A DNA stretch of 32,305 nucleotides, from contig JACRFY010000033.1 of NCBI GenBank assembly GCA_016212565.1, positions 1 to 32,305 of the forward strand, in the 5' to 3' direction. The first letter of the stretch is position 1. Each line of letters starts with the position of its first letter. The translations under genes and the position numbers were made by a program. The DNA is from Magnetospirillum sp. Its GTDB lineage: Bacteria; Pseudomonadota; Alphaproteobacteria; Rhodospirillales; Magnetospirillaceae. Shown here piece after piece: positions 13,783 to 30,494 of this stretch. The notes beneath the pieces were generated by a model, which was given only the letters and a program-made list of their open reading frames with translations, was not told where the DNA came from and did no database searches.

Positions 13783-13862
13783 GGCGCCCCCCGTCCTGGC
13801 CGATGCTAGGGGGAAATACGACCTTAGGCAACCGGGGCCCGACGGCTCGCCGAAGTCTTCGC

Positions 13863-13889
13863 CACAGATGAACACAGATCAACACAGAG
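13863..13889. repeat. Short tandem cacagatgaa/cacagatcaa/cacaga repeat
   Basis: Two and a half copies of a ~10-bp unit (cacagatgaa cacagatcaa cacagag) upstream of the STAND gene. Similar 'acacagat' tandem motifs are found between genes in many bacteria. No function is known to me. Confidence 0.55.
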
Positions 13890-14287: not shown

Positions 14288-16162
14288 TCAGTCGAGGGAG
14301 AAGAAGCCTGCGCCCAGGCCGGCCATGGTCTCTACGAGCAGGCTTCGGTCGAGGAATAGGTTGCGGTTCTCACAGCTGGTTTCGGCGATCAGCAGGCAGC
14401 CGTGGCAAGCGGCGCCGTGGAGGGCGCGGTCGTCGGCACTGGAGGCCGGTTCGTGGTCGGCGCAGATGGGATCGTTCGAGCACACCTCGAGCCGGTCAAG
14501 CGCCGAAGTCAGGATGGTGGCAAATCGCGCCGATGTGGCGACAAGGCCGCCAAGCGTGCCCTGATTGCCCGAGGTGGCGGTGTAGACGAGAATGCCGCAG
14601 CTATCGATATGATTTCTCCGCAGCGGATTGGCGAGGGCGTAGATGCGCTCCTTCAGTGCGCTCGCCGGGTACCCGCATTCCAAGGCTATTTCCGCCATCA
14701 GGACATGAGAGAGGCTGTGGAGCATGGTGTAGACGAGGCCGGGGTTGGGAGCGCGTCGATCACCACGCAGTTCCGCCCAGCGTTCGTAGCCGCCGAGGAG
14801 CTGGCGGGCACGGGGGCCGACTGCCTCCCGTCCAAGCCACTCCGTGATTGCGGCCTCGTCGAAGTGGATGAACAGGCCCTCGCCGAACTGCTCCACCGCT
14901 GGTAGCCAGTCTGCCCCCAAGCTCAGGGGCGCTCCGTCAACGGCCAGCTGCACGTCCTCCAACTCCCCGTCGGTAGAGGTTGGGGCGGCTTCGAAGCGAG
15001 TGAAACCGTAAAGACAGGAGACTTCCCGGAGACGGTGAACGGCGACCAGGCTTCTGATGCCCCGGCAGACGGGCGCATGGTTTGCGTCCCAAGCCTCGCG
15101 CGGCAAAGTCTCGGCGAACAGTTTCGACTCCGGCAGGTTCTCGCCGATCACCGGATGCCCGCTGGCGAACACCGCAAACTCGGCTAGCCGAGGCGGCGCC
15201 GATGCATCTTGCTGCACCTGGGCATTGAAGAGCTGCAGGCGCGCGAAAACATCGGTATCCGCGTAGCCCTCAAAGGAAGCCGCCAGTACCCGGTTGAAGC
15301 GACGAGCCAGACCGATATCCTCGGCGCTTCGGGCGGCGGCCAAATCGTCGAAATGGGTCTGCACCAAGCGCGACAGTGCATCCTCGCCGCTCGGCAGGGA
15401 GATGACGGTGGCGATCTGGGGAAAATATGTGTTGGTCGCGGTTCGGGTGAGGAAGCGGAGAGGGTTGGTGCAGCCTGCAGGATCACGGTCGCCGAGCCAG
15501 GGACGATCCCCCCGACAGGTTCCCAGACGATGGGGAGCGAAAGCCTGTTCCAGGGAAAGCGACTTGCCGCAGTCGCATTCCACCAGGGTGTCGCGCGGGT
15601 CGGCACTGGTGCCGCGCTCGACCAGCCACATCGCTTCCCGGCATTCAGTCGGCCCATGGACCACTCGCCGCCAATCGATGTCCTGAAGATGGCCCTTCTC
15701 GCAGCCGGCAACGAAGCGGATGGGTGTGACATCGACCTTCTTGCCGCTTTCCAGCTCGAACTGGCGGCGTCCATTGGCCGGGTTCAGTTCCTGCCAGCGG
15801 ACCAATCGACGGCGGCGGGTGTCGATGCCACCTCCCTCTGTGGTCTGCGCCTCGGCTTCGCAAACGAACCAGGTCGGAAACACCGTGACCGCCACGCCGG
15901 GCGGCTCCCTGCCGGCGATGTCGACTGCCAGCGGTGGTGTGCGCAGCGAGAGCGTGCGCGTCTCTTCGAGCCGTCCCGTCTTTTTCAGGTTGCGCTCGAT
16001 CATCTCGGCCAAACGCCGCTCATCAATGGCGGTGAAGGCGCGTTCCCGCATGTCCCAGCGCTCAAGGCCGCCGATCAGCACCGAGCGGGTGGGCAGGTCG
16101 AGCATGGCGCCCGGCCCGAAGGTCGTGATCAACTGGCTGAGGCGCTGAAGGTTGCGGGCCAT
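14288..16162 (-). CDS. drmB: DISARM anti-phage protein DrmB (DUF1998)
   Basis: 624 residues. The N-terminus (FGPGAMLDLPTRSVLIGGLERW) and C-terminal region (YTMLHSLSHVLMAEIALECGY, DSCGILVYTATSGNQGTLGGL) are typical of DUF1998 proteins. Cysteine clusters at C196/C198/C216/C231 and C560/C567/C586/C589/C597 suggest bound zinc. In DISARM, DrmB works as a complex with the helicase DrmA, the core needed to block phage. The drmA TGA is fused to this gene's ribosome site (TGAGGAGCAACC before the ATG at 16162), so translation is coupled. Last gene of the operon: no drmC follows before the tRNA-Leu. Confidence 0.93.
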   Translation of the reverse strand: MARNLQRLSQLITTFGPGAMLDLPTRSVLIGGLERWDMRERAFTAIDERRLAEMIERNLKKTGRLEETRTLSLRTPPLAVDIAGREPPGVAVTVFPTWFVCEAEAQTTEGGGIDTRRRRLVRWQELNPANGRRQFELESGKKVDVTPIRFVAGCEKGHLQDIDWRRVVHGPTECREAMWLVERGTSADPRDTLVECDCGKSLSLEQAFAPHRLGTCRGDRPWLGDRDPAGCTNPLRFLTRTATNTYFPQIATVISLPSGEDALSRLVQTHFDDLAAARSAEDIGLARRFNRVLAASFEGYADTDVFARLQLFNAQVQQDASAPPRLAEFAVFASGHPVIGENLPESKLFAETLPREAWDANHAPVCRGIRSLVAVHRLREVSCLYGFTRFEAAPTSTDGELEDVQLAVDGAPLSLGADWLPAVEQFGEGLFIHFDEAAITEWLGREAVGPRARQLLGGYERWAELRGDRRAPNPGLVYTMLHSLSHVLMAEIALECGYPASALKERIYALANPLRRNHIDSCGILVYTATSGNQGTLGGLVATSARFATILTSALDRLEVCSNDPICADHEPASSADDRALHGAACHGCLLIAETSCENRNLFLDRSLLVETMAGLGAGFFSLD

Positions 16163-16171
16163 GGTTGCTCC

Positions 16172-19100
16172 TCAGACGGCGTCGTCGGCATTGGCGATCG
16201 GGTTGCCCCAGGGATCGCGGAGCTTCAAGTGAACGTTCGCTTCCACGTCACGCATGGAGCGGCCGGCAACGAAGCGCTGGTGAGCCTGTGACAGGTTGGG
16301 CAAGGCCGGATCAAGCGGCGCATGCAGCAGCGTCTGACGCGCGCCTTGCCGCGTATAGGCGAAGGCCAGCCCATTCGCCGTCTGCTCGTCGGCGACGGCG
16401 ACCCAGTCGGCAAGGAGGTCATCGATCAGGCGGGCCAGGTCGGCCGTGCCGCCGGCCACCGCACCCTCGGGGGCGCGGTCAATAATGGCGTCACGCACCC
16501 GGCCCGCAATGTCAGGCTGGTCCCTGAGCGCGCGCACCGCCAGCTCTGGGGTCAGTGCCGGATCGATATGACGGGCGATCGCCACCACCACGGCCGCCAA
16601 TGCCCGGTCGAGGGCACGTGCCGCCCACGGTGTCACGCTGGTCGCCTCGACCACGCGATAGAAGGTGCGATGAAACTGGCCGAACTGCTCATAATGCATG
16701 CGGTCGCGGGGCTTGTGGACGTTGAGTACGGTCACCACCAATCCCGGCTTTGTCGGTGCGCGGCCGACGCGGCTGGTCGCCTGAATATACTCGGCCGCCG
16801 TCTTCGGCTGGCCCTGGACCAGCATCAGGCCAAGCCGGGTGATGTCGAGACCGACCGAGATCATATTGGTCGCCAGTGCCACATCGACGGTGTCGGCGGC
16901 GACCCCAAATTCCGTCTCCAGCCGCCGTTTCGCTTCGGCCACCTGATCGGTGGACACGCGCGAGGTCAGCTCGAGGGGCTCGCCCAAGCGCCGGTTGGCA
17001 AAGGGCGTGTCAGCCGGCAAGATTCGTCGCCGTTCGCGGCCGTAGCGACGAGCGCGGTCCCGCACCTCGTCCTCGACGATGCGCCGCGCGCCGCCGAGTT
17101 CGCGCAATGCGTTGAAATAGCAGAGCGCCGTCAGGTAGGGATCGGCCGGGTTTTCCGCGCCGCCGCCAGCAGCATCATAGGCGGCCTGGGACGCGGCCAC
17201 CAAGGTGGTCAGCGCGCGCAAGAACACCAACTTCGGTCCCCGCCCCTGGGCGGCGAGGCCGAGATACCAACGCGGCGGGTTGTTCTCGTCCCGCACCGTT
17301 CGGGCGAAAAAGCTGTCGGTGCGCTCGATGCCGGGCGGTGGGAAAACCTCCGTGCGCTCGCGGTCGAACAGGGCTCGAATTTGCCCGGCGGCGCGGCGGA
17401 CCGTGGCGGTTGACGCCACGATCTTGGGCCGGATGCGGTGCCCTCCCCGCATGCGGGTCGACAGCCGGTCGATGGCGGTCTCATACAGCCCCGCTACCGT
17501 CCCCAGCGGCCCGGAGATGAGGTGAAGTTCGTCCTGGATGATCAGATCGGGCGGCTCGAGGGTCCAGTCATTGTGCAGTCGCTGACCTTGGCCGGGCTCC
17601 GACGCCCCGAAGAAGCCCTGATTGGGGTCGAAGCGATCGACATGGCCAAAGAAGGCACCGCTAGCCCCCACCCATGGCAGTGCCGCGAACTTGTCGACGG
17701 TGGCAATGAGGAAGGCTGGCAGGCGGCGATAGATCGGCTCGTCAACGGTCAGGAGCGGCAGCGCGCGATCGCCGGTAAAATCGCAAGCCGGATTGCTGCA
17801 ACGGATTTCCAGATTGCGAGGGGCGTGATCGTTGGGCACGCAGCGGAACGATTCGCGCCCGAACGGGGTGCCGCACCAGGGGCAAGCCTTGATCGGAGCC
17901 GGCGCCCGCCCGCCCTTTTGGCGGAAACGACGGACACGGGTGACGGCGGTCTCCTCGCCGGTGTCACCACGCCCACCGAGACGATTGGGAGAGGCATCCG
18001 AACCCACCCACAGCCCGATCTCGATCGGCCAGGTACCGAGCAGCGGCTGACCGCCAGGACCGGCGTTGGCGGGGTCGGTACGCATCAGTTCCAGGGCACA
18101 CACCACCCCGGCGGCGCGGGCCAACTGGTCGAGGGTCAGCAGGCGGAGCGTGTAGCGCATCATCACCGTCACGCCCGCCCCCAGCACGCCCCCGGCCGAC
18201 AGCCGGCGGTGGGCGATGGCGAATGCGGCGAGGCCGAGATAAGCCTCGGTCTTGCCGCCGCCGGTGGGGAAGAACAGGAGATCGACGACTTCACGGTCCG
18301 GATGGACTTTGTCCGCCAAGGAGCCGAGATTCAGCAGGATGAAGGCGAGTTGGAAGGGGCGCCAGGTCGGCGCCCGCTGGGCGGCGGGATCACCATTGGC
18401 GCCGGCATTGCGGCGTCGCGCGGCCCGCGCCACCGCCTCATTCATCATGCGAAAGGCAAGGCGAACGCGATCGTCCTGCAGCAGTGCGATGCCGGCGGCG
18501 ATGCGTGCCTGCGCCGACCCCATGCGGGCGGTCAGCACTTCGGCGGTCTGGCGCCGTCGCTCGGCCCGCACCTGTCCGGCCACCGCTTGCTGGGCCGCGA
18601 TCCATACGCCATAGAGTTCGGGCAATCGCCTTAACCCGGCGATGAGCGGCGCGCTGCCTTGTTCGGCCAGATCGGCAAGCGCTTCCATGCCGAACTCCAC
18701 GCCTTCCATGTCCTCGTTCGGAGCCACCCGCTCGACTTCGGCGAGCGGCAGGAAGTCGGTATGGACACGGCAAACCCGTCCCTCGCTGTCGGGAGGTGTC
18801 CACCCCGCCGCAGCGTTGCGGCCGACGCCGTACTCGGCAAGGTCACGGTAGTGCAGATCGCCGAGACGCAGGTCGTCGTCGGGCGACCAGTACCCCGACA
18901 GGTCATAGCGCGGGCTGAACCCAGTGGGGCACAGCAACTCGATGCAGACTTGGAAGGCGTAGGCGGCATCGGAATAGCGGCGCGACGCCGCCGACCGCCG
19001 ATTGACCAAGAAAACAGTAACGGCGCGCACGCGCTCCTCGCCGCCTTCCGGCGTTTCGAAGGCGAAGGCACGGGCATGGACGGTCAATTCGAGCGCCCCG

Positions 19101-19651
19101 CCCGGCACCAGCGGCGACGCGCTTTCGGGCACCAACATGCGGCGGCGGCCATCGGCGATGGGCAGACGGACGCGGCGCTCCTGCGGCACGCGCACCCAAT
19201 CGACCTTGGTTTTCTTGGCTTCGACCTCGCCGCCGCCATCATCGGGCAGCAGGACGCCCGGCGGCAGGGGCGGCTCGGTGACGTAGTCACCCCAGCTGAT
19301 CACCGCCTCGACCTCGGCGACATCGAGCGGCAGCAACACGGTGAGACCAACCGAGGACGGCAGGAAACGGCGCCGGACACTCGGGGCTTCGGGTTCGGCA
19401 TCGTCGCCCGCCGCACCGCCTGCGCCGTCACGCTCGGCGCTCTCGGCCTCCAGGTCCATCTCTTCCTGAACTGCCGGATCGTCCTCTTCCGGCTCATCCT
19501 CGGCCGGGGCGAGGAAGCCGGTCAGATACCAGCGCGACGGATTCTCGCTGAGGCGTTCGCGGGCGAGATCGGCATCGCCTGAAGCCGGCCCGACAAGGTC
19601 GCGCCGCAACGTGTCGACGAGGGTCGCTCGAATCTCGGTGCTGTTGGTCAT
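16172..19651 (-). CDS. drmA: DISARM anti-phage helicase DrmA
   Basis: 1159 residues, a superfamily 2 helicase-like protein. Visible motifs: Walker A FFPTGGGKTEAYLG (460-473), DEAD-box variant IIQDELHLI (704-712), motif III VASTAT (745-750), motif VI QATSRVGRA (957-965). A zinc-binding insert lies between motifs I and II (C590, C593, C604, C618, C623). The N-terminal third contains an acidic stretch (EDEPEEDDPAVQEE) and DrmA-type unknown domains. DrmA forms the DNA-binding core complex with DrmB. Its ATG overlaps the stop of the PIN-like gene (ATGA), and drmB starts 9 bp after its stop. DrmA is normally directly downstream of drmMI; here four genes intervene. Confidence 0.93.
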   Translation of the reverse strand: MTNSTEIRATLVDTLRRDLVGPASGDADLARERLSENPSRWYLTGFLAPAEDEPEEDDPAVQEEMDLEAESAERDGAGGAAGDDAEPEAPSVRRRFLPSSVGLTVLLPLDVAEVEAVISWGDYVTEPPLPPGVLLPDDGGGEVEAKKTKVDWVRVPQERRVRLPIADGRRRMLVPESASPLVPGGALELTVHARAFAFETPEGGEERVRAVTVFLVNRRSAASRRYSDAAYAFQVCIELLCPTGFSPRYDLSGYWSPDDDLRLGDLHYRDLAEYGVGRNAAAGWTPPDSEGRVCRVHTDFLPLAEVERVAPNEDMEGVEFGMEALADLAEQGSAPLIAGLRRLPELYGVWIAAQQAVAGQVRAERRRQTAEVLTARMGSAQARIAAGIALLQDDRVRLAFRMMNEAVARAARRRNAGANGDPAAQRAPTWRPFQLAFILLNLGSLADKVHPDREVVDLLFFPTGGGKTEAYLGLAAFAIAHRRLSAGGVLGAGVTVMMRYTLRLLTLDQLARAAGVVCALELMRTDPANAGPGGQPLLGTWPIEIGLWVGSDASPNRLGGRGDTGEETAVTRVRRFRQKGGRAPAPIKACPWCGTPFGRESFRCVPNDHAPRNLEIRCSNPACDFTGDRALPLLTVDEPIYRRLPAFLIATVDKFAALPWVGASGAFFGHVDRFDPNQGFFGASEPGQGQRLHNDWTLEPPDLIIQDELHLISGPLGTVAGLYETAIDRLSTRMRGGHRIRPKIVASTATVRRAAGQIRALFDRERTEVFPPPGIERTDSFFARTVRDENNPPRWYLGLAAQGRGPKLVFLRALTTLVAASQAAYDAAGGGAENPADPYLTALCYFNALRELGGARRIVEDEVRDRARRYGRERRRILPADTPFANRRLGEPLELTSRVSTDQVAEAKRRLETEFGVAADTVDVALATNMISVGLDITRLGLMLVQGQPKTAAEYIQATSRVGRAPTKPGLVVTVLNVHKPRDRMHYEQFGQFHRTFYRVVEATSVTPWAARALDRALAAVVVAIARHIDPALTPELAVRALRDQPDIAGRVRDAIIDRAPEGAVAGGTADLARLIDDLLADWVAVADEQTANGLAFAYTRQGARQTLLHAPLDPALPNLSQAHQRFVAGRSMRDVEANVHLKLRDPWGNPIANADDAV

Positions 19652-20166
19652 CGGGAAATTCCCGTCTCGAGGGACGCCAAGTCGCTCAACTTAGCCTCAT
19701 GCCATCTTTTTGCGTATTGGACTTTCAGTTGCGGGTTCGATCGATGGCCGATGTCGTTCAGCAAGCCTTCCAGCGACACCAGACGATCACGTAGACCGAG
19801 CCTTATCCCGATCCGTAGGCTACTGGCGTCCGGCCCGCAAAGAACCCAGGCGTCAGCGCGGGTGAGCGCGTGCGCCCACAGATGCTTTTCGCCCGGATCG
19901 AGATCGACGATGCGCGCCTCCCGTGCCAACGCCTGTGCGAGATCGGCGTCCGCAACGGCGTGGACGGCAGCAAGGCTTCGGCGCAATTCAACCTGGTCGA
20001 TCTGCAGCTCCGGGCGCCGATTTTGGAATCCCGTGAGCGTTTCTTCCACGCACTTTTCGACGGCTTCCGTCCGGTATCGCTGGGTCAGAGCCCGCCAACT
20101 CGCCGTCCGGTGACACTCCAGGATCGCATTGGTATCGACAAGGAGGGGACCGGAATGCGACGCCAT
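19648..20166 (-). CDS. PIN-like domain protein (putative RNase)
   Basis: 172 residues. The start LLVDTNAILE puts an acidic residue (D11) at the end of strand 1, as in PIN nucleases. Other fitting positions are E37/E41, E93 in PGEKHLWAHAL and D113 in VLCGPDASSL. This is the usual four-acid spacing of PIN-like folds, though overall similarity is weak and the family is not named with certainty. It lies 6 bp after the XRE-ImmA gene, a pairing seen elsewhere between HTH-peptidase proteins and PIN (for example DUF4411-like) proteins. Its stop overlaps the drmA start, so it is co-expressed with DISARM. Role inferred. Confidence 0.68.
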   Translation of the reverse strand: MASHSGPLLVDTNAILECHRTASWRALTQRYRTEAVEKCVEETLTGFQNRRPELQIDQVELRRSLAAVHAVADADLAQALAREARIVDLDPGEKHLWAHALTRADAWVLCGPDASSLRIGIRLGLRDRLVSLEGLLNDIGHRSNPQLKVQYAKRWHEAKLSDLASLETGISR

Positions 20167-20172
20167 GGCGGG

Positions 20173-21282
20173 TCACAACTCCATTGCCGCGTCGATTCCG
20201 TGCGCTCGATATAGCTCCGGCAGGTCGTCGAGGGTGACGCCGAGCAGGCCAGCCGCCCGCCGGGTGGAGAGGACGCCGTCGTCGAGCGCGCTGGCGATCA
20301 CCTCCATGAACCGCCGCGAAAACGGCGGCGGCATGTCGCGTGCCCTGCCGGGTCGGCCGTTATTGCGGATGGCGGCCTCGGGCACCTGTCGCGCCACCGC
20401 CTGGGAAATGATCTTGAGATCGGCCAAACGCCACCGCAGTGCGGACGCGGTGACCGCCAGTTCGTCCGCCATACGGTTGAGCTTGGCGACGATGGCTCCC
20501 ACGTCCATGCCGGCCCAGTCCCCGGCTCGCGCGATGACAGTCCGCGGCATCAGCACTGCCGATGCGAAGCCGTTGGCGAGGCGCTCGACGTGCGACTTCG
20601 AGATTTCGCTGGCAGCCTCGGAATGATGGGGTGGCATCGCTTCCCAGGTCAGGATGTGGAAGAGTTCATGGGCCAGGTCGAAGTGGCGCCGCCCTTCCGG
20701 TTCGCGGCGGTTGATCAGGACGGCGTCCAATTCCTGCAGGCGGCAGGCGGCGCCCGAGACGCCATCGATGGCGTCGACCATCAGCACCAAAATGCCGAAT
20801 TCCTGGTCCATGACCTCGGCCAAGCGCCGGGCCGGCACGTCGCCGAGGGCGAAGTCGGCCGCAAAACGTTCGCCAGCAGCGCGGGCCTCGTCGTCGGTGC
20901 TCCTTGTGGTAAGGGTCAGGGTACGCCGGAACAGGGGAGCGGCGTGGCCGACCTGGGGGGCAACCCGGCGGAAGGTGGCGATCCATTGTCCGGCGCCCTG
21001 CTCGAAAGCCATCAGTCGCTCCGGCGCGATCCCCGTCTGCCGCCAGGAGAACCGGCCCTCGTCGCCGACGAGGACGAAGGGATCGGTCATTTCCTCGACG
21101 GTCGTCTTGAACACCTTCGCCGCCTGCAGCAGCTCGTCGGCCGACAGGCGGCGTTCGCCGGTCTCGATGGCCGAGATCGTCTGGCGGTCCTTGAATCCGA
21201 GTTGGCGCGCCAGCTCATCCTGGGTGAGCTTGTGCGCCTCCCGCAGGGCTTTGATGCGGGGACCGAAGGCAGGTTGTGTCAT
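20173..21282 (-). CDS. XRE-type regulator fused to ImmA/IrrE zinc peptidase
   Basis: 369 residues. Residues 7-62 form a helix-turn-helix of the XRE/Cro type (IKALREAHKLTQDELARQLG, TISAIETGERRLSADELLQAA). The C-terminal half is an ImmA/IrrE (COG2856-like) peptidase with the zinc motif HELFH (205-209) in RRHFDLAHELFHILTWEA and a downstream helix (SHVERLANGFASAVLMP) supplying the third ligand. ImmA peptidases cleave repressors on a stress or DNA-damage signal. A GGAGGG ribosome site precedes the ATG at 21282, and a candidate promoter and operator lie upstream. Together with the PIN-like gene it looks like a regulator/nuclease cassette placed inside the DISARM operon. Confidence 0.88.
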   Translation of the reverse strand: MTQPAFGPRIKALREAHKLTQDELARQLGFKDRQTISAIETGERRLSADELLQAAKVFKTTVEEMTDPFVLVGDEGRFSWRQTGIAPERLMAFEQGAGQWIATFRRVAPQVGHAAPLFRRTLTLTTRSTDDEARAAGERFAADFALGDVPARRLAEVMDQEFGILVLMVDAIDGVSGAACRLQELDAVLINRREPEGRRHFDLAHELFHILTWEAMPPHHSEAASEISKSHVERLANGFASAVLMPRTVIARAGDWAGMDVGAIVAKLNRMADELAVTASALRWRLADLKIISQAVARQVPEAAIRNNGRPGRARDMPPPFSRRFMEVIASALDDGVLSTRRAAGLLGVTLDDLPELYRAHGIDAAMEL

Positions 21283-21286
21283 GGCA

Positions 21287-21329
21287 CCCTCCGCAGAGGG
21301 GTATGCTCTTGCGAATTGCCGATTGCAAG
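21287..21329 (-). promoter_or_regulatory. Candidate internal promoter with operator and SD hairpin
   Basis: In the only sizeable gap of the operon insert: TTGCAA (21323-21328) and GCATAC (21301-21306) on the minus strand are spaced 16 bp apart, like a -35/-10 pair. They overlap an imperfect inverted repeat cttgc...gcaag (21308-21329), a possible operator for the downstream XRE protein. Nearer the gene, ccctc-tgcg-gaggg (21287-21300) forms a hairpin that would cover the ribosome site. Inferred from spacing only. Confidence 0.4.
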
Positions 21330-21347
21330 ATTTTCATGCGTCTTAGA

Positions 21348-22877
21348 TTAGGGAGCCCTTTCTGATATCTCGTCCAACAGACGGTCCCGGGTCGCATCGG
21401 TGATCTCGCCCATGTTGGCAAGATGACGTATGAGCGCCGTTCGGCTGACCTCCATTTGCCTCGCGGCGCCGATGATGGCGTCGATCGTCACCCTATCGCC
21501 GGGCTCGGACATCGTGCGGCGAATCAGTTCTGCGGGCATCAACAGCATCGCTGCAAAGGCGTTGGCTCGTTGTTCGATTTCCTGAGGCGCCCAAGGGGTG
21601 CTGGTATGGGTAACCCGCTTTGCCCGATTTCGATCATGCAGGAGATGGCATAGCTCGTGACCAATCGTGAATCGCCGACCGGGCGAATAACGGTTTGCCG
21701 AATGGTCGGTATTGATCAGAATGGTGGGCTGAATCTTCTCCCCGGCCAAGGCAACGCCTCGCGGTCCGTCGCCGTCCAAGCGTTCTTCATCGACCTTCAC
21801 CTCAAGGCCGGCGAGCAGAGCATCGAGATCGAGATGATTGCCTTTCGGCAGCGCGTCTGCATCCTCCAAGAAATATGTCGCCAGCCGATAGCCTTCATCC
21901 CACGGTGACCGATCCACGACCGGCCGAGGCTCAACGAACTGGTCGATCGTCGCCTTTATCGGGCTGTCGGCCATCCTGCTGGCAGTCACCTCCAACAGCC
22001 TGCGAGCCGCCTTAGATGATATGTTTGGCGACAGCGATCCAAACATGGCAACAGCAGGAGACGGGCTGGCCAAATAAGTATTCCGACGCATCACGTCGAA
22101 TATACTTGATGATTTCACCCTCATTTCCGACTTTATACAGCCATATATTTTGCTCAGTTTGTCGTCGACGGCGGAGCCGTCAATGAACCAATTGATCCAG
22201 CGGTCAACCGATCCTTCTCCGCTCCGTGACGTCACTGCCTGGGAAAAATCCGGAAACCATGGGCGATCTTGAAGGGCTGGCTGCAAAACGGCCCATTCCA
22301 ATGCCCGATCTAACGCCTCGGCGACCGCTTCGACGGGAGGGTGGGCGACGCCGGTTTCCAGACGGAAAGAAACGGCATCGCCGCCCGGCTGGACGCGATC
22401 CCCCCAACTTATTTCGATCGTATCTTCCAGCCGGCGGAGAAAGAAATCGGGAATCACCCCGCCCTCGGCCGCGCAGCGAATGGAGTGGCGAGACGCCCAT
22501 GCCTGCCACGGAACAAAGGCGCCGCTGTCGAGACTGCGCCGTGCCAATACCGCCAAGTATGCGTCGCGCGCCGAGTGGTGGCGCGTGGGCGTGGGAAAGC
22601 GCTCTTCATGGAGCAGGGGCGCCCAATTGTTGGCAACCCACCGCAGGAGCGGCGCCAAATACCAAGTGACGGCGTCTTTTGATCGGGACTGGTCGTCGTC
22701 GAAGGTCAGGTCGTGCAGACAGAGGTTATAGCCGTTAACCCAAAGTCGCCACTCTCCCCATGACCCTACGGATGCATGTGGAGCCGCGTTGTCGCCATCC
22801 GGATCTTCGACGAGACGAAGATCAAGGGCGAACGAGTGGATGTCGCCGAAGCGCTCGAAACCGTCATCCAACCTCAT
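21348..22877 (-). CDS. ImmA/IrrE-type zinc peptidase with a long unknown N-terminal domain
   Basis: 509 residues from the ATG at 22877, which has a GGGGAGG ribosome site inside the end of the upstream gene; a GTG at 22892 is the alternative. Residues 1-380 match no family I recognise (GEWRLWVNGYNLCLHDLTFD, VANNWAPLLHEERF). The C-terminal part carries the zinc motif HELCH (407-411) in RRFTIGHELCHLLHDRNRAK, with the third ligand probably in EIEQRANAFAAMLLMP (E435 region). The peptidase class matches ImmA/IrrE, but there is no HTH. The gene overlaps the 126-aa upstream gene by ATGA. It is the second ImmA-like protein in the operon. Confidence 0.82.
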   Translation of the reverse strand: MRLDDGFERFGDIHSFALDLRLVEDPDGDNAAPHASVGSWGEWRLWVNGYNLCLHDLTFDDDQSRSKDAVTWYLAPLLRWVANNWAPLLHEERFPTPTRHHSARDAYLAVLARRSLDSGAFVPWQAWASRHSIRCAAEGGVIPDFFLRRLEDTIEISWGDRVQPGGDAVSFRLETGVAHPPVEAVAEALDRALEWAVLQPALQDRPWFPDFSQAVTSRSGEGSVDRWINWFIDGSAVDDKLSKIYGCIKSEMRVKSSSIFDVMRRNTYLASPSPAVAMFGSLSPNISSKAARRLLEVTASRMADSPIKATIDQFVEPRPVVDRSPWDEGYRLATYFLEDADALPKGNHLDLDALLAGLEVKVDEERLDGDGPRGVALAGEKIQPTILINTDHSANRYSPGRRFTIGHELCHLLHDRNRAKRVTHTSTPWAPQEIEQRANAFAAMLLMPAELIRRTMSEPGDRVTIDAIIGAARQMEVSRTALIRHLANMGEITDATRDRLLDEISERAP

Positions 22878-23254
22878 TTCCAGCCTCCCCACGACGCCCT
22901 ATCTATATCAGTTCGGGACCAAAGCCTGTCGACATCACGGCTCTTTATCTTCCGCTCCATTTTCCACCGATCGACAATATGCTGTTCGATCTTGTCCCAT
23001 TCAACCGGGTAGCCGTGCCACACGTTCTTATCATCCGGATAGGTCAGTCGCGCCATAAAGGCGACGCCGTCCCGAGTGGCGACGCGTGCATTGTCGCCCA
23101 TGGGCAGGCTGTGCTCGAACAAGTCCCGCGCCTCCTCCAGCGACATCCTCGGGCATCGCGTCCCCGGAGCGGTATAGGGTGGGCAATGCTTGTTGCTGGG
23201 CTCGTAGGTGGGCGTGGTGAGCGAGGCAGAGGCATCAGTCTTGCGTCGGATCAT
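22874..23254 (-). CDS. 126-aa protein of unknown function within the DISARM operon
   Basis: 126 residues. An excellent GGAGGTGA ribosome site lies 4 bp before the ATG at 23254, and the start overlaps the drmMI stop (ATGA); the 3' end overlaps the ImmA-like gene (ATGA). The N-terminus (STTPTYEPSNKHCPP-like, with two cysteines in CPPYTAPGTRC) is polar. The rest contains LEEARDLFEHSLPMGDNARVA, VWHGYPVEWDKIEQHIV and a Lys/Arg-rich tail. I do not recognise the family. The tight coupling suggests that it acts with the ImmA-like protein, DrmMI or both. No transmembrane segment is seen. Confidence 0.72.
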   Translation of the reverse strand: MIRRKTDASASLTTPTYEPSNKHCPPYTAPGTRCPRMSLEEARDLFEHSLPMGDNARVATRDGVAFMARLTYPDDKNVWHGYPVEWDKIEQHIVDRWKMERKIKSRDVDRLWSRTDIDRASWGGWK

Positions 23255-26200
23255 TCGTCACCTCCCTCCTGTTCCTCATCATTCCCGCCGTTGCCCTGCC
23301 GCCGGCCGCCCTGGCCGGGGGCGATGCCGAGGCGGAGTTCTTCCTCGTGGCGTTCGGCGTTCAGCGCCAGCAGGCGGGCCAGCACCTCGTCGCGCACCTC
23401 GGCCGGCCAGAAGTAGCGGCCCTGGTACTTGTGGTCGTCCTCGTTGCTCTCGTCGAGGAACACCGGCACCGCCAGCGGGATCAGGTCGTCCCAGCCATAG
23501 GCGCCTAGCACGGCCTGGTCCATGGCGTCGTGCAGGCGGCGGAGTTCGACGATGTCGGGCGACCGCTCATCGCGCTTGTGGAAGCGGTTGTAGGTCTTGG
23601 TCAGGCCCTCGTTCCGAGCGATCATCAGTTGGGCGCGGTGATTGTGATAGGCGCGGCCAGCATCTTCCGGACCGGAATCGGTCTCGAAATCCGCAGGGAA
23701 GGGGAAATTCACCAACACATCGCTTGGGTTGTAGGTATTGTCGTCCGCAGCTCCCCGTGTTGATCCAAACATCGTGCACCAGAGCTCATGTGACCGTGCT
23801 TGAAGCACGGCCAAGCCAGATAATGACGTTATGGCAAGTATAATAAGTTTGTGAGAAAAAATTTGATTCGCTGGAACGCGCACGAACGCGTGATGGGTTA
23901 GGGCTGCTGCGCCAACAGCCAACACGGTGGGCAATCTATTAATTGCGCGGTAAAGGCCAGGTTGCCGGTCTCCGAACCGCCACCAGCGTTTCCGTCTGGC
24001 CTCCCGATTGTCTTTGTCCCGTTGGGGTTTCACCATCTGGCGCACGATATGGATCAGGTCCGGCCAGTCTTCGGCCACAGGGCCGGGATAGTCTTGCGGC
24101 ACGGAACCTTCGCGCAGGTTCTTGGATTGGGTCTCCGGCGCCATCTGGAGCCAGCCGCGCTCGCGGTGGTCACGGCACAGCGGCATGTCAGCAAAGTCGA
24201 TGACATACCGGCGGTGGGCGTGCCGCGGGTCGTTTGTGATTTCCTGATTTCCAATAAAGGGGAAGATGCGTTCAGCGTTTCTCGCGTCCTTGTCGATCAG
24301 CTGCCGCATTTCCGCCAACGAGGAAGCCGTGCCTTTGGCTGCCGCTTCGTCGTCGAAGGTGAAGCCCATGCCGAGAACAACGGAGCCTTGAAAAGCCTTG
24401 CCTTGATTGGCTGCCAAAGCGGCAGGGCTTCCATCCAGGTTACCTTCAACCAGATAGGCGGAAATCCGCCGCACGGGCCGTCCGTCCAGTACCGGCTGTA
24501 GTGCCCGGCCCTTCATGACATGGACCACCGACACCACCACCGCTGCTTCGCCAGGCCACTTCAGGCGGCGGAGGGCGTGGCCGATAGTGCCACCGGCCTT
24601 CAGGATGGCCGCCAGGCCGGTCTGCCGCGTGTCGCCCTGGGCAATGGTGTTGGTGGCGATCAGGCCGAACATGCCATCCTGCCGCAGCAAGCCAAATGCC
24701 CGGCGGAAGAAGTGGGCAACCAGATCGGCGTTGCCGTGTGCCTCGGCGTGAAGGGTCTGGTACCAATCGAGAATGCCGTCGCGGCTGCCGGCGATGATGG
24801 TGTTCTTGCCGGCAAAGGGCGGATTGCCGACGATGGCGTCGAAACCATGATTGTCGCGGGCAAACACTTCGGGGAACTCGATCTCCCAGTGAAATGGAGT
24901 GATCGGGTGCCGGCCGGTTTGCAAGGTGGCTTCCAGCGCCTCTAGCCGTGGCCAAAGCTGGTCGGTGGGGCCGTGCGCCCAGCTTTCAATTTCCTGGCGC
25001 TGGCGCTCCCGGTCCTTGGGCTTCTGAGCCGAGAAGAACGCCGCAATGATGGCGTTGCCAACCAACCGCACGTGGTCGAGGCGCTGCTCGACCTGACGGT
25101 ACCGCACCTCCTGCACCGCGCGGGCCACGTCGTCGGGCGCGTTCTGAATTTCGGCCCGTCCGCGCAAGGCGGCCTCGAAGCGCTCGCGCACGAGCTGGCC
25201 GAAAAGCGGCAAACCCTTGCCGGCATCCCAATGCAGCGCCGCAATCTGCGCCCGCGTCAGCCCGACCAGACTATCTCCGGCCTTCATCGCGTGGTCGAGG
25301 AAGGTGAATTCGTGGTCGCGGGCCAGGGTCGCCAGCCACAGCGACAGCCGCGCCAGGTCGACCGCCATCGGGTTCTTGTCGACGCCGTAGAGGCAGCGCT
25401 GCGCCACCAGGCGGCGGGCGTGCAGGTCCTCGTCCTCGTCGGTGGGGATCGCCGGCCGGGTGCCCGGCCATTTCGCCCATGCCTTGACCAATCGGGCGGC
25501 CAGGGCACGGCAGGCTTCGACCAGGAAGGCACCCGAGCCCATGGCGGGGTCGCAGACCTTGAGGTCGAGAACCTGCTCCGGGGTCGCGTCGTCGCCCAGG
25601 CGGGCGAAGGCCGGCTCAAGGGCGTGGCGGACGATGGGCTCGGTCAGGCTTCGGGGGGTGTAGTGGCTCCCCGTCCGGCGGCGTTCGTCGGTGGGCTGCA
25701 GGATCGGCGTGCCGGCCGGCACCACCCGTTTGCCCGGCGAGCCGCGCTCGTCGACCAGCGGCTCCAATGCCGCCGCAAGATCGCCTTCGCCCTTGGCCGC
25801 CTTGATCGCCGCCTGCTGTTTGGCGGTCAACGAACTGCGCTTGGCTTCCTCCTTGAGGTGCTTCAGCCGCTCCTCGGGCTTGGCGGCGGCCAGGGCCTGC
25901 AGGTCGACGAAGACCGGGGTGCGGTTGTTCTTGCCGGCATGGATGGCCAGCACCGGGCCGGTGGCGACCTCGACGGTGAAGCCCATCACCGTCTCGTAGA
26001 CCGAACCGATTTGTTCGACATCGAGGGTGCGGTAGGACAGCCGCTCGCCCTTCAGCATCACCAGATCGTCGAGCAGGCGCAGCACGCTGCCGTCGCTCAC
26101 CCGCGGGATGCGCGGACGTTCGGCCGGGTCGGCGCGGCCTTCGAGGAAGGCGAAGGTATCGGGATCGAACAACTTGCCGCCGCGGCCGGTGATCCAGCCG

Positions 26201-27255
26201 GTGCGGTCGCCGGCATGGACGAGGCGGAACAGGGCGAGCAGGCGGCCCCAGGCGCCCAGACGCTCGTCCATGGTGTCGGGATTGCGGGCGGCATCGTCGA
26301 GCAGCTTGGCGTGCAGGCCGCGCACGGCATAGCCCTGGTCGTAGAAGGCCCGCGCGGTGGCGTCGGTTCGCGAGGGGATGAGGTCGCGGTCCTCGGCATA
26401 GAGCACGAACACCAGCCGCATCAGCACCGTCAGCAGGCCCTCGTAGAGATGGGCCGGGCGGCTTTCCGCCAGGGTTCCGACCAGCTCGGGCTCGGCGGCG
26501 GTCAGGCCGCGCAGCAGCTCGTGCAGCGCCCCCAGCACCTGCTCTGACAGCGCCGTGGAGACGGCGGCCTGGGCCTCGCGGCTGCGGCTCAATAGAGCCG
26601 GCAGGCGGCGGTCCTCGGCGTCGTTGAGCAGGCGGAAGCGGTGCAGCAACAGCTTGAGCCCGCCCAGCATCGCCCGCCCGGCCACCGTCGCCAGCGGGCG
26701 TAGCGGGAAGGCCAGCCAGCCCGAGGTCTCGCCGCGCGGTGCGAACACCAGCCGCAGGGTGCGGTCGCTGATCAGCACGCCGATGCCGACGCCGGTCTCG
26801 CGCAGCAGGCGTTCGAAGCGTTGATGCGCGGTCGCCTCCCAGCCGTCCAGCGCCCCGCGGGTGTCGGGATCGACGCCGTCCGGCTCGATGCGTACCAGCA
26901 TCTGCCAGCCCGCCGCCTGTCCCGCCGCCTTCACCGCCCAATGGGGTTCGAGGGTGGTGTCGTATTCGGGCAGGCGGACCACCAGCTCTTCCGGCAGGTT
27001 CGGGCCGCCGGGGGCACCGGCGACGAACGGTGCAGTCCAGCCGAGGACACGCTCGGCGAAGGCCCAGGGGTCGATCAGCGCCGGTCCCTCGTCATCATCC
27101 GACAAGGTTTCCGCCACCACCGCGTTGTCGAGCTGGGTCTGCAGCGTCGGCGTCAGGCCCAGTTCCTTGATCAGGCTGGGGGCGACCACCAGGCCGACCG
27201 GCTGGACGTGGTCCAGCCATTCGAGATCGGGATCGCGGGAGAGCGGCTCGGCCAT
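23251..27255 (-). CDS. drmMI: DISARM DNA N6-adenine methyltransferase DrmMI
   Basis: 1334 residues from the ATG at 27255, preceded by GGGGTGAG; an in-frame GTG at 27264 overlaps the drmD stop and is an alternative. SAM-binding motif I CDPAMGSGAFLVEA lies at about 568-581 and catalytic motif IV VGNPPFAGK at about 809-817. This is the N-P-P-F amino-methyltransferase type, as in Eco57I-like enzymes. The N-terminal 500 residues are the long helical domain seen in DrmMI and other large RM proteins (SVYETVMGFTVE, SLTAKQQAAIKAAKGEGDL). In class 1 DISARM this protein marks the host DNA and is needed for self/non-self discrimination. It follows drmD directly. Confidence 0.93.
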   Translation of the reverse strand: MAEPLSRDPDLEWLDHVQPVGLVVAPSLIKELGLTPTLQTQLDNAVVAETLSDDDEGPALIDPWAFAERVLGWTAPFVAGAPGGPNLPEELVVRLPEYDTTLEPHWAVKAAGQAAGWQMLVRIEPDGVDPDTRGALDGWEATAHQRFERLLRETGVGIGVLISDRTLRLVFAPRGETSGWLAFPLRPLATVAGRAMLGGLKLLLHRFRLLNDAEDRRLPALLSRSREAQAAVSTALSEQVLGALHELLRGLTAAEPELVGTLAESRPAHLYEGLLTVLMRLVFVLYAEDRDLIPSRTDATARAFYDQGYAVRGLHAKLLDDAARNPDTMDERLGAWGRLLALFRLVHAGDRTGWITGRGGKLFDPDTFAFLEGRADPAERPRIPRVSDGSVLRLLDDLVMLKGERLSYRTLDVEQIGSVYETVMGFTVEVATGPVLAIHAGKNNRTPVFVDLQALAAAKPEERLKHLKEEAKRSSLTAKQQAAIKAAKGEGDLAAALEPLVDERGSPGKRVVPAGTPILQPTDERRRTGSHYTPRSLTEPIVRHALEPAFARLGDDATPEQVLDLKVCDPAMGSGAFLVEACRALAARLVKAWAKWPGTRPAIPTDEDEDLHARRLVAQRCLYGVDKNPMAVDLARLSLWLATLARDHEFTFLDHAMKAGDSLVGLTRAQIAALHWDAGKGLPLFGQLVRERFEAALRGRAEIQNAPDDVARAVQEVRYRQVEQRLDHVRLVGNAIIAAFFSAQKPKDRERQRQEIESWAHGPTDQLWPRLEALEATLQTGRHPITPFHWEIEFPEVFARDNHGFDAIVGNPPFAGKNTIIAGSRDGILDWYQTLHAEAHGNADLVAHFFRRAFGLLRQDGMFGLIATNTIAQGDTRQTGLAAILKAGGTIGHALRRLKWPGEAAVVVSVVHVMKGRALQPVLDGRPVRRISAYLVEGNLDGSPAALAANQGKAFQGSVVLGMGFTFDDEAAAKGTASSLAEMRQLIDKDARNAERIFPFIGNQEITNDPRHAHRRYVIDFADMPLCRDHRERGWLQMAPETQSKNLREGSVPQDYPGPVAEDWPDLIHIVRQMVKPQRDKDNREARRKRWWRFGDRQPGLYRAINRLPTVLAVGAAALTHHAFVRVPANQIFSHKLIILAITSLSGLAVLQARSHELWCTMFGSTRGAADDNTYNPSDVLVNFPFPADFETDSGPEDAGRAYHNHRAQLMIARNEGLTKTYNRFHKRDERSPDIVELRRLHDAMDQAVLGAYGWDDLIPLAVPVFLDESNEDDHKYQGRYFWPAEVRDEVLARLLALNAERHEEELRLGIAPGQGGRRQGNGGNDEEQEGGDE

Positions 27256-27260
27256 ATTTC

Positions 27261-30200
27261 TCACCCCGACGCCGGCCAGAGATAGACCAATCCGACCGCT
27301 TCCAGCCGATCGGCCCGCACCGAATAGGACTCGCGGACACGGGCCGGCTCATCGGCGATTTCGCGTTCGATTTCACCCAGGCGCGACCTCCAGTGGCGGC
27401 GGTCGCGGTCGAGCTGCTTGCGCTCGGTCTCGGCAATGCCGGGCAGCGCGAGCTGGTTGGGGTCGAAGCCGGCTTCCGCCTTGACGATGCGGGCGCGTTG
27501 CGCTTCCAGCAGCTCGGCCAGCGATTTGGCCTCGGCCTCGCCCCGCGCCGCCAACTCACGGGTCACCACGGCAAGCCGTTCCCTGGCCCGACTTTCAAGC
27601 TCGTCGCGCAGGTTCTTGGCGTCGGTCCGCGCCCAGCCCTTGAGCCGCGAGACGATGGCGGCGGGGGCGGCGCGCGCCTCGCGCAGAGCCTGTTCGAGCT
27701 GATCCAGCGTTGTCTCCTCGCCGTGACTGCCCAGCGGGCGCAGCGGCTTGCGATCGCGGCCGGCTTCGGTCCACACCGCGGTCACCGGCACGAACTCCTC
27801 GTGCAGCCGCGCCGCGCCGGGGCCATAGACCGCCAGACGACCGACCATGACGACGCGGGGCTGGGCGCCGGGACCGACCACGACGCACACCCGTTCGAGT
27901 CCCGACTGGAAGCCCTGGGACAGGAAGCGCGACAACAGGCGCCGCACCAGACGGTGTTCGAGATGGACCTGGACCACGTCTGCGGCATCGGTGCCGTCGG
28001 GACGGATGGGCGGCTCGAACGAGATAGCGCGGACGGGCGTGTCGCGGCGCCACTCGGCCAGCCGTTCGCCGCGGCGGCGGCGGCGGGGACGAAGGTCGTC
28101 GAACGCATCGGCCCAACTCGGATCACGGGCGAACACCTCGGCCGCCGGGTCGAAACGGAAGGTCTCGACCCGGCCGACCGGCTCGGCATGGGCCTGGTCG
28201 AGGTCGGACTTGGCCTTGGTCAGCGCAGTCGCCACCACCTGCCTCAGTTCGCGCGGATCGACGCCGACCCGCTCGCGCGAGCGCTCCAGCACCTTGCGCA
28301 GGTCGTCGAGGTCCTTCAGCAGGCGCTGCCGGCGCGCACGGTCCTCGTCGTCCATCTCGGTCTCGGCCACGCCCATGCGACCGTCATTGTCCTCGTCACG
28401 CAGGCGCTGGGCCAGGACCTGGGCATTGCCGCGGGTGATGCCGCTTTCGTGCAGCCGTTCCTCGATGACCCGACCGACCGAGCCGAGCTGGCTGCGGACC
28501 CGTTCAGTCTTCCACACCAGGGCTTCGAGGACGATATCCTCCTCGCGTTGGGCATATTTGAAATAGCGGCAGAACACCTGCTTGGCCGGCTGCAACTTGC
28601 GGTCGATGCGGCCGTTGCGCTGTTCCAGGCGTGACGGGTTCCAGGGTAGGTCGATGTGGACGAGGTCGTGACAGCGGGTTTGCAGGTTGATGCCCTCGCG
28701 TGCGGCGTCGGTGCAGATCAAGATACGCAGCGGCTCGACTGCGGGGTCGGCATTGAAGGCGCGCTTCACGCCCTCGCGACGATCGACGCCGGTGGCGCCG
28801 GTGAAGGTGCCGATGCGTTCGTCGATACGATCGGTGTCGGCCAGAACCTCGCCGAGGCGCCTTTCCAGCCAGCGCCGGGTGTCCTCGTACTCGGTGAAGA
28901 GGATCAGGCGGCGGTGGTTCCACTGATCGCCGTCCAGCATATGCTGGCGAATCCAGCCTGTCAGCCAGGCGATGCGGGTATCGGGCTTGGCGGCATGCTG
29001 CTTGGCAAATGCCAGCATCTCATCGACGGCCGCCAGCTCCGCTTTGATGTCCCCCGCACTGGCACCGGTCACCCCGAGGAGGGTGGCGGCATCGGCGGCG
29101 GCATCATCGTCGGCCGCCAGCTTCGCCTCGATATCGGCCTCGTCGGTTCCGAACGGCAGGTCCTGGTCGGCGGCGGCGATGGGGGCGAAAAGCTGTGCGG
29201 CGGCCTCCGGCACCGCTGTGCCATCCCGCTCGATCGCGGCGTGAAGGCTCTTGCGATGGACCTCGATGGTGCGGGCGAACGCCGCCACCGATGACAGCAG
29301 CCGCTGCTGCAGCCCGATGAACACCAGCTTGGCCTGGTTGGCCTGGTGACGGGGCAGGAGGGCGATGCGCTTGCCGCGAAGCTCACCGTATTCGGCCAGC
29401 ATACGGGCGAGCCGCAATTCGGGCGTGGTCTCGGGCAGGCCGTCGAGGAAGATGGGATCGACGATGCGCTCCGGGAAGGGCTCGCCGATGCGCCGCAGGT
29501 CGGATTTCAGCCGCCGCACCATCACCGGATCAAGGTCGCGCGGACGCACTTCGACGCCACGGGTGAAGCGCTGGGGGTCGAGCATCTCCAGCAGCGCCGA
29601 GAAGCTGTTGGAATGGCCGTTATGCGGGGTGGCGGAGAGGAACAGGCGATGCTCGAAGCGGCCGGCCAGATCGCGCACTGCCTTGGTGAACTGGCTGTCG
29701 ACGGCGTATCGCTGGCCACTGGCGGGGGCAGCGTGGTGCGCCTCGTCGAGGATCAGCAGCGCCCGCGGCCGAAAGGCGCCGAGCAGGTCGCGCAGGCCGG
29801 CGGTATAGGTCTCGTCGGTCAGCAGGCGATGCGAAACGATGAAGCGTGAGCCGGTCGACCAGGGATTGACACCGAAACCCCGCTGCCGACGCATGTCGGC
29901 CAGGCGATCGCGGTCGATGATGATGAAGGAGAGGCCGAACTTGGCCTCCAGTTCATCCTGCCACTGCAGCGTCATCGACGGCGGCGCCGCTACAAGGGCG
30001 AAATCGATGCGGCGACGCAGCAGCAGCTCGCGCAGCACCAGGCCGGCCTCGATGGTCTTGCCCAGGCCCACGTCGTCGGCGATCAGCAGATTGACGCGCG
30101 GCAGGCGCAACGCCTTGCGCAGGGGCAGCAGCTGATAGGCATCGAGCCGGATGCCGGCGCGGAACGGAGCCTGGAACAGATCGCGATCCGCAGCGGTCGC

Positions 30201-30494
30201 CGTGTTCCATTTGAGGGTGCGCAGATAGGCGGCGAAGGTCGCCGCATCGTCGGTACCGTTGGCGGCGATCTCGGCCCAAAGGTCCTCGGACAGTGGGTGC
30301 GCGCCGATCTCGGTCTCCGCCGCCCATGCGACTTCAAGCGCCTCACCCTGCGCATCGTCGGAGATGCAGGAAAGCTTGAGCGCGGTGAGCCCCTCCCCCT
30401 TGTCCTCGATGCCCTCCACTAGCCAGGGCCGGCCACGGACCTCGACGAAATCACCCAGTTCCGGACACGTCTTTGAATTGCTCACGGCCTGCAC
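27261..30494 (-). CDS. drmD: DISARM SNF2-like helicase DrmD
   Basis: 1077 residues. SNF2/SF2 motifs: Walker A IADDVGLGKTIEAGL (138-152), motif Ia LVAAPPSMTLQWQDEL, motif II LILDEAHH (247-254), motif III LFLSATPHNGH (284-294), and motif V/VI DLPWNPSRLEQRNGRIDR (about 600). It has the long C-terminal region characteristic of HepA/DrmD-type proteins. DrmD is the marker of class 1 DISARM. First gene of the operon. The frame opens with GTG at 30494; another GTG at 30485 is possible and no strong ribosome site separates them. The stop touches the start region of drmMI. Confidence 0.92.
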   Translation of the reverse strand: MQAVSNSKTCPELGDFVEVRGRPWLVEGIEDKGEGLTALKLSCISDDAQGEALEVAWAAETEIGAHPLSEDLWAEIAANGTDDAATFAAYLRTLKWNTATAADRDLFQAPFRAGIRLDAYQLLPLRKALRLPRVNLLIADDVGLGKTIEAGLVLRELLLRRRIDFALVAAPPSMTLQWQDELEAKFGLSFIIIDRDRLADMRRQRGFGVNPWSTGSRFIVSHRLLTDETYTAGLRDLLGAFRPRALLILDEAHHAAPASGQRYAVDSQFTKAVRDLAGRFEHRLFLSATPHNGHSNSFSALLEMLDPQRFTRGVEVRPRDLDPVMVRRLKSDLRRIGEPFPERIVDPIFLDGLPETTPELRLARMLAEYGELRGKRIALLPRHQANQAKLVFIGLQQRLLSSVAAFARTIEVHRKSLHAAIERDGTAVPEAAAQLFAPIAAADQDLPFGTDEADIEAKLAADDDAAADAATLLGVTGASAGDIKAELAAVDEMLAFAKQHAAKPDTRIAWLTGWIRQHMLDGDQWNHRRLILFTEYEDTRRWLERRLGEVLADTDRIDERIGTFTGATGVDRREGVKRAFNADPAVEPLRILICTDAAREGINLQTRCHDLVHIDLPWNPSRLEQRNGRIDRKLQPAKQVFCRYFKYAQREEDIVLEALVWKTERVRSQLGSVGRVIEERLHESGITRGNAQVLAQRLRDEDNDGRMGVAETEMDDEDRARRQRLLKDLDDLRKVLERSRERVGVDPRELRQVVATALTKAKSDLDQAHAEPVGRVETFRFDPAAEVFARDPSWADAFDDLRPRRRRRGERLAEWRRDTPVRAISFEPPIRPDGTDAADVVQVHLEHRLVRRLLSRFLSQGFQSGLERVCVVVGPGAQPRVVMVGRLAVYGPGAARLHEEFVPVTAVWTEAGRDRKPLRPLGSHGEETTLDQLEQALREARAAPAAIVSRLKGWARTDAKNLRDELESRARERLAVVTRELAARGEAEAKSLAELLEAQRARIVKAEAGFDPNQLALPGIAETERKQLDRDRRHWRSRLGEIEREIADEPARVRESYSVRADRLEAVGLVYLWPASG

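Follow-up and report, generated by a model that had tools for sequence, protein, structure and literature searches.

Why should a class 1 DISARM operon carry four additional genes between two of its core genes? This question is raised by a contig of Magnetospirillum sp. (JACRFY010000033.1, positions 1 to 32,305; the whole 32,305-nucleotide stretch is called the window below), in which drmMI and drmA are separated by genes for a 126-aa protein (U126), an M78 peptidase-like protein (M78L), an XRE-type repressor fused to an M78 peptidase (XRE-M78) and a PIN-like protein. Descriptions of DISARM usually give a fixed set of genes plus a loose list of auxiliary genes, and the canonical class 1 order is drmD-drmMI-drmA-drmB-drmC. 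An original prediction, made from the DNA letters, had taken the four genes as one peptidase and nuclease cassette that is co-translated with the core and may serve as a regulatory switch or back-up response. We found that the insert is two independent two-gene modules, U126+M78L and XRE-M78+PIN, in a variable cargo slot at the drmMI|drmA junction. A class 1 DISARM cargo slot with interchangeable contents is a better description of this region than a four-gene block.

A class 1 DISARM operon interrupted by four genes

The genes of the operon lie on the minus strand and are transcribed in the order drmD, drmMI, U126, M78L, XRE-M78, PIN-like, drmA, drmB. The first core gene, drmD (27261-30494), encodes a SNF2-like helicase (NF038317, 1025 bits, cut-off 610; PADLOC DrmD), and drmMI (23251-27264), which borders the cargo slot on the left, encodes an adenine methyltransferase (PADLOC DrmMI, 1226 bits; Eco57I/N6_Mtase). 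The right edge is formed by drmA (16172-19651), a single-copy gene in this genome that encodes the class 1 DISARM helicase (NF038325, 1084 bits, cut-off 950), followed by drmB (14288-16162), which encodes a DUF1998 protein (NF038324, 527 bits, cut-off 240). All four core proteins either matched curated DISARM families above the cut-off or gave the best PADLOC scores, and the four genes required for class 1 DISARM were found in order. The window resembles class 1 DISARM in its full-length drmD, drmMI, drmA (DrmAS) and drmB, strong family scores and canonical order; it differs in the four additional genes at drmMI|drmA and in an open reading frame (ORF) for a NACHT-TPR protein where drmC would be expected. 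No drmC (PLD nuclease) was found after drmB in the window. DrmC has been reported to be often missing and to be dispensable (PMC9142583), so we did not take it as defining and kept the class 1 assignment on the other four genes.

All four genes named in the original prediction were found between drmMI and drmA on the minus strand of this core, and the overlaps that it relied on are real. Those of drmMI with U126 and of the PIN-like gene with drmA are exact ATGA overlaps. That of U126 with M78L is ATGA if M78L begins at the ATG at 22877 (509 aa, good Shine-Dalgarno), and the sequence suggests this start in place of the listed GTG at 22892. Between M78L and XRE-M78, 65 bp containing a conserved palindrome split the insert, so the four-gene block is not one co-translated unit and the predicted co-translation of the whole insert with the core does not stand.

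The drmMI|drmA junction is a variable cargo slot

We surveyed 23 class 1 loci in which both drmMI and drmA could be placed: the window, 19 plasmids (the Ensifer plasmid locus placed by ORFs only) and 3 genomes from a class-wide drmD search. Results showed that drmMI|drmA was filled in 12 of the 23 loci and empty in 11, while drmA|drmB was interrupted in none of 23 (Fisher p 7e-5 against 12/23; the loci are related, and the p-value is a guide only). The drmD|drmMI junction was filled in 3/22. Four slots hold XRE-M78+PIN, each with different companions: U126+M78L in the window, an annotated PLD gene with an antisense DUF2188 gene, an antisense DUF2188 gene alone, and a 162-aa protein with a membrane-helix-like tail. 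Other slots contain MqsA with a SecB-like protein (toxin-antitoxin-chaperone type), PARIS-like AAA15+DUF4435 (two loci), HATPase+Methyltransf_35, a 480-aa unknown protein, a 299-aa unknown protein, antisense XisH/XisI, or three antisense genes. Even loci with near-identical DrmA had unlike slots (Nostoc N6 filled, Calothrix NIES-22 empty).

Several of these contents can be placed exactly. The PARIS-like pairs lie in the Trichormus and Nostoc carneum DISARM loci (L033 12035-14018 and L039 12092-14019). The Thiodictyon slot (L030 13438-14915) carries an unknown gene, an MqsA-family gene and a SecB-like gene, together with insertion sequence (IS) elements. In the Microvirga slot (L034 11879-14293) an HSP90-like ATPase stands beside Methyltransf_35, and the slot of the closely related G490 DISARM is empty.

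XRE-M78 and the PIN-like gene travel as a pair

Among 72,556 plasmids, only 26 carry drmMI and 5 carry XRE-M78+PIN. Three of the five pair-bearing plasmids (Methylocystis, Acidibrevibacterium, Sinorhizobium) are among those 26, and in each the pair occupies the drmMI|drmA junction and immediately precedes drmA. In the Acidibrevibacterium locus drmMI is interrupted by an IS5 element (L012 5848-10657), with the rest of the operon intact. Copies of the pair without DISARM occur in Rhizobium, Burkholderia, genome G457 and prophage contigs, including the other two of the five plasmids. In a class-wide sample, the pair was present in 1 of 4 genomes with drmD above the cut-off (the window) and in 1 of 381 others. 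XRE-M78 directly precedes the PIN-like gene in the examined relatives; L057 is the exception, its two ORFs being convergent. The G457 copy adjoins HerA-, helicase- and Dsr2-like genes. At L007 (2517-13005), the pair lies between RecD/helicase-like and Dsr2-like genes in a defence island without DISARM.

On the DrmA tree, XRE-M78+PIN occupies two separated places, one formed by the window with Acidibrevibacterium and Methylocystis and the other by Sinorhizobium, whose DrmA sister, Paracoccus, has an empty slot; on the XRE-M78 tree, the non-DISARM copy of G457 nests among DISARM copies. Both trees are small, with some weak branches. The separated places, the near-identical DrmA proteins with unlike slots and the nested G457 copy together indicate that slot contents turn over and that the pair moves independently. 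The original prediction was right that the insert is not random: four loci, from two separated places of the DrmA tree, have XRE-M78+PIN in the drmMI|drmA slot.

Features of the two proteins

XRE-M78 (20173-21282, minus strand) combines a helix-turn-helix (HTH) repressor domain (HTH_3, 5e-14) with an IrrE-type peptidase (Peptidase_M78, 4e-11) and is a predicted antitoxin and repressor. In M. tuberculosis, the PIN toxin VapC52, which cleaves tRNA and confers phage resistance, has VapB52 as its antitoxin; single-stranded DNA (ssDNA) triggers VapB52 self-cleavage (PMC13273310). XRE-M78 matched structure 9vzy, inferred to be the VapB52 chain from its length and the construct in PMC13273310, over the peptidase and C-terminal domain (E 9.4e-10) with the HExxH motifs aligned. 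The HELFH motif and E233 are invariant, so XRE-M78 has both the HExxH metal site and homology to VapB52. By inspection, an invariant FSWR (residues 78-81) marks the boundary between HTH and peptidase, the position of the FR cleavage motif in VapB52. An invariant Cys180 precedes HExxH.

The PIN-like gene (19648-20166, minus strand) encodes a 172-aa predicted RNase toxin and meets drmA in the ATGA overlap. Across 13 relatives, D11, E42 and E93 are invariant and D113 is nearly so, and the first motif resembles that of PIN proteins. A fold search with a low-confidence model gave weak matches, of which the top eight rows were all PIN proteins; that VapC52 and other PIN families were not listed there is not evidence of their absence.

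A conserved palindrome precedes XRE-M78

Just 5' of XRE-M78, the window contains the palindrome TCTTGCAA-N8-TCGCAAGA (21307-21330, minus strand), with a conserved counterpart at the corresponding position in L011, L012 and L013. Alignment of the upstream regions gave TCTTGCAA-N8-TYGCAAGA in the window and these three DISARM plasmids, and G457 has a weaker, partial version. The site occurs once in the 4.0-Mb genome (reversed control 0). A relaxed pattern also matched prophage loci L054, L056 and L058 upstream of the pair, and no other fetched locus; the positions of the prophage palindromes agree with where the upstream XRE-M78 gene begins, as deduced from the PIN match. Two DISARM loci have a small antisense DUF2188 gene adjoining the palindrome (L011 10695-10898; L012 10679-10882).

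The palindrome is predicted to be an XRE-M78 operator that belongs to the module and that, in DISARM, stands before XRE-M78-PIN-drmA-drmB. Read on the plus strand it looks terminator-like and may act as a terminator, but its conservation at the start of XRE-M78 argues against this.

U126 and M78L form a separate pair

M78L (21348-22877, minus strand; about 509 aa; ORF listed from GTG 22892) has a C-terminal IrrE/CapP-like M78 peptidase (PF06114, 8e-13) and an uncharacterised N-terminal domain. Its best PADLOC score was to capP (81 bits), and it matched CapP structure 7t5t in the PDB (E 9.5e-5). The zinc motif is HELCH, and HExxH and E440 are invariant in 6 relatives. The original prediction of two zinc peptidases and an RNase therefore holds for the peptidases, which both keep HExxH; the RNase assignment lacks Pfam support.

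U126 (22874-23254, minus strand) belongs to no known family, and family searches gave no HTH match. A contig scan with a two-row M78L alignment gave just 2 relatives, back-translated patterns being poor. Pararhodospirillum oryzae has a full-length M78L relative, overlapped on its upstream side by a U126 homologue, and a wider search added seven further genomes. A U126 homologue directly upstream adjoins M78L in 8/8 of these other genomes, none of which has drmA. No M78L relatives were found in viral contigs. GC content is 59% for U126/M78L against 65-68% for the DISARM core. U126+M78L is thus an obligate pair in these genomes and probably a later arrival. It joins a related peptidase to an uncharacterised partner and would probably be another stress- or phage-triggered pair. 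Both U126 homologues (window 22874-23254; L003 2997-3464) weakly matched the C-terminal part of PADLOC NsnC.

A single four-gene cassette was rejected: no other examined locus has all four genes, and the two pairs recur independently. Recurrence mainly as an independent cassette, which the original prediction had named as the outcome that would count against it, describes U126+M78L fully and XRE-M78+PIN in part. The regulatory or back-up role that it proposed is plausible given the recurrence of XRE-M78+PIN in four DISARM loci, though not for one four-gene block.

A putative toxin-antitoxin switch before drmAB

We consider it probable, with some reserve, that two mobile modules share the variable slot and that XRE-M78+PIN is a peptidase-controlled toxin-antitoxin pair regulating drmAB. 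The gene order, the independence of both pairs, the recurrence of XRE-M78+PIN in the DISARM slot and the conserved site are observed; repression, toxicity, trigger and read-through into drmAB are inferred. XRE-M78 would bind the palindrome that precedes its gene and thereby limit transcription of itself, of the PIN-like toxin and, by read-through, of drmA and drmB; it would also bind the PIN-like RNase and keep it silent. Upon infection or damage, ssDNA or another sign may activate the IrrE-type peptidase, so that XRE-M78 cuts itself. The promoter would then open, drmAB would be up-regulated and the PIN-like RNase would be freed as a growth-stopping back-up. Activation of DrmAB has been reported for unmodified DNA that carries 5' single-stranded overhangs (PMC9142583), which raises the speculation that the DISARM and XRE-M78/PIN layers could share a trigger. 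More tentatively, XRE-M78 may couple two immunity layers, with self-cleavage on ssDNA both derepressing drmAB and releasing the PIN-like RNase, and drmMI|drmA may serve generally as a socket for back-up effectors with the same trigger or promoter as DISARM; we regard this extension as a rather doubtful possibility.

Several results weigh against the favoured reading. The PIN-like protein matched neither a Pfam family nor, by sequence, VapC52 in the PDB, its AlphaFold2 (AF2) model was weak (pLDDT 55), and a profile comparison against the genome's own VapC-type PF01850 proteins aligned the first motif only; DUF4411 proteins aligned even less. The AF2 model of M78L was unusable (pLDDT 34), and with both models weak we based no fold claim on models alone. 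The PIN assignment is accordingly a weak one, drawn from the acidic residues, the first motif and the weak fold matches. The switch-loop cysteine that follows HExxH in VapB52 is absent at the aligned place in XRE-M78, so we compared XRE-M78+PIN with VapBC52 and did not file it there. A scan over the palindrome found no sigma-70 consensus promoter, so a promoter is predicted here from conservation only, and promoter activity and control of drmAB stay putative. The pair is also missing from 19/23 class 1 DISARM loci, which indicates that DISARM does not need it.

The strongest competing explanation, which we judge possible but clearly less probable, is pure hitch-hiking: the slot would be a tolerated insertion point between co-transcribed genes, where addictive modules stabilise the operon or plasmid and play no part in DISARM. 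Slot contents unrelated across loci, the many empty loci, the different slots of Nostoc N6 and Calothrix NIES-22 and the commonness of toxin-antitoxin modules on plasmids all fit this explanation. It does not lead one to expect that drmA|drmB is never used, that several slot contents are defence-type modules, or that XRE-M78+PIN takes one and the same position, abutting or overlapping drmA, in two DrmA clades that lie apart.

Closer integration is harder to reconcile with the data. If the PIN-like and M78 proteins were dedicated subunits of the DISARM complex, with the PIN-like nuclease replacing drmC, the ATGA overlap with drmA and the lack of drmC after drmB in the window and the pair-bearing plasmid loci would be explained. 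Yet alphaproteobacterial loci that lack the pair show no drmC annotation beside drmB either, and DrmC has been reported as dispensable (PMC9142583). The pair is also widespread without DISARM, and copies from DISARM and non-DISARM loci are intermingled in the phylogenies of PIN and XRE-M78; we hold the subunit reading to be improbable. Most improbable of all is a four-gene unit in which M78L cleaves XRE-M78, as CapP does CapH, and so triggers both PIN and DISARM. The CapP score of M78L and its place directly upstream of the repressor gene favour such a unit, but the two pairs were never together in any other examined locus, U126-M78L relatives occur in genomes without drmA, U126/M78L has the lower GC content, and XRE-M78 has a peptidase domain of its own.

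Neighbouring genes

Directly 3' of drmB, on the same strand, an ORF at 11275-13875 encodes a NACHT ATPase with TPR repeats; it had no PADLOC match and is at most a candidate DISARM gene. On the other side of the operon, divergent from drmD, two adjacent ORFs (30657-32231) encode the N- and C-terminal domains of a GmrSD-type (type IV) restriction system, possibly a split gene.

Comparison with known systems

The pair most resembles VapBC52 (Rv2515c-Rv2514c), in which an antitoxin with HTH, M78 peptidase and C-terminal helical domains likewise precedes a small PIN-like gene. It differs in its DISARM location, in a PIN-like protein too divergent for a VapC52 sequence match and in the place of its cysteine. 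In 2009, Makarova et al. predicted a class of toxin-antitoxin systems in which a fused XRE-COG2856 gene accompanies a PIN gene (PMC2701414). XRE-M78+PIN resembles that class in its fused gene, its operon with a putative PIN-family gene and its plasmid and prophage mobility; the HTH+M78 fusion is present and the pairing holds in the examined relatives except L057, but the PIN fold is tentative, and the pair is a candidate member of the class. In the passages of PMC2701414 consulted, neither a DISARM location nor a conserved palindrome is described. CapH/CapP of CBASS also places an M78 peptidase beside a defence operon, and M78L scores to CapP. Separate HTH repressor and peptidase genes were not found here, however: XRE-M78 fuses the two functions, no separate CapH-like repressor is present and U126 has no HTH match.

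For the slot itself, our literature search, with subscription papers outside it, found no report of cargo at the DISARM drmMI|drmA junction. The survey suggests that toxin-antitoxin and other defence modules reuse this one class 1 junction as a slot, much as has lately been reported for BREX loci, and it offers a simple recipe for discovering further defence modules: search between drmMI and drmA. The XRE-M78+PIN module brings its own predicted regulatory site right before drmAB and offers a connection, directly open to test, between modification-based defence and a back-up triggered by infection. The nearest precedent is BREX, where PARIS-like and RNase back-up modules are reported within core loci (PMC12839542). 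There too such modules lie inside the core operon of a modification-based defence; PMC12839542 deals with BREX and does not mention DISARM, in which the position is fixed to one junction.

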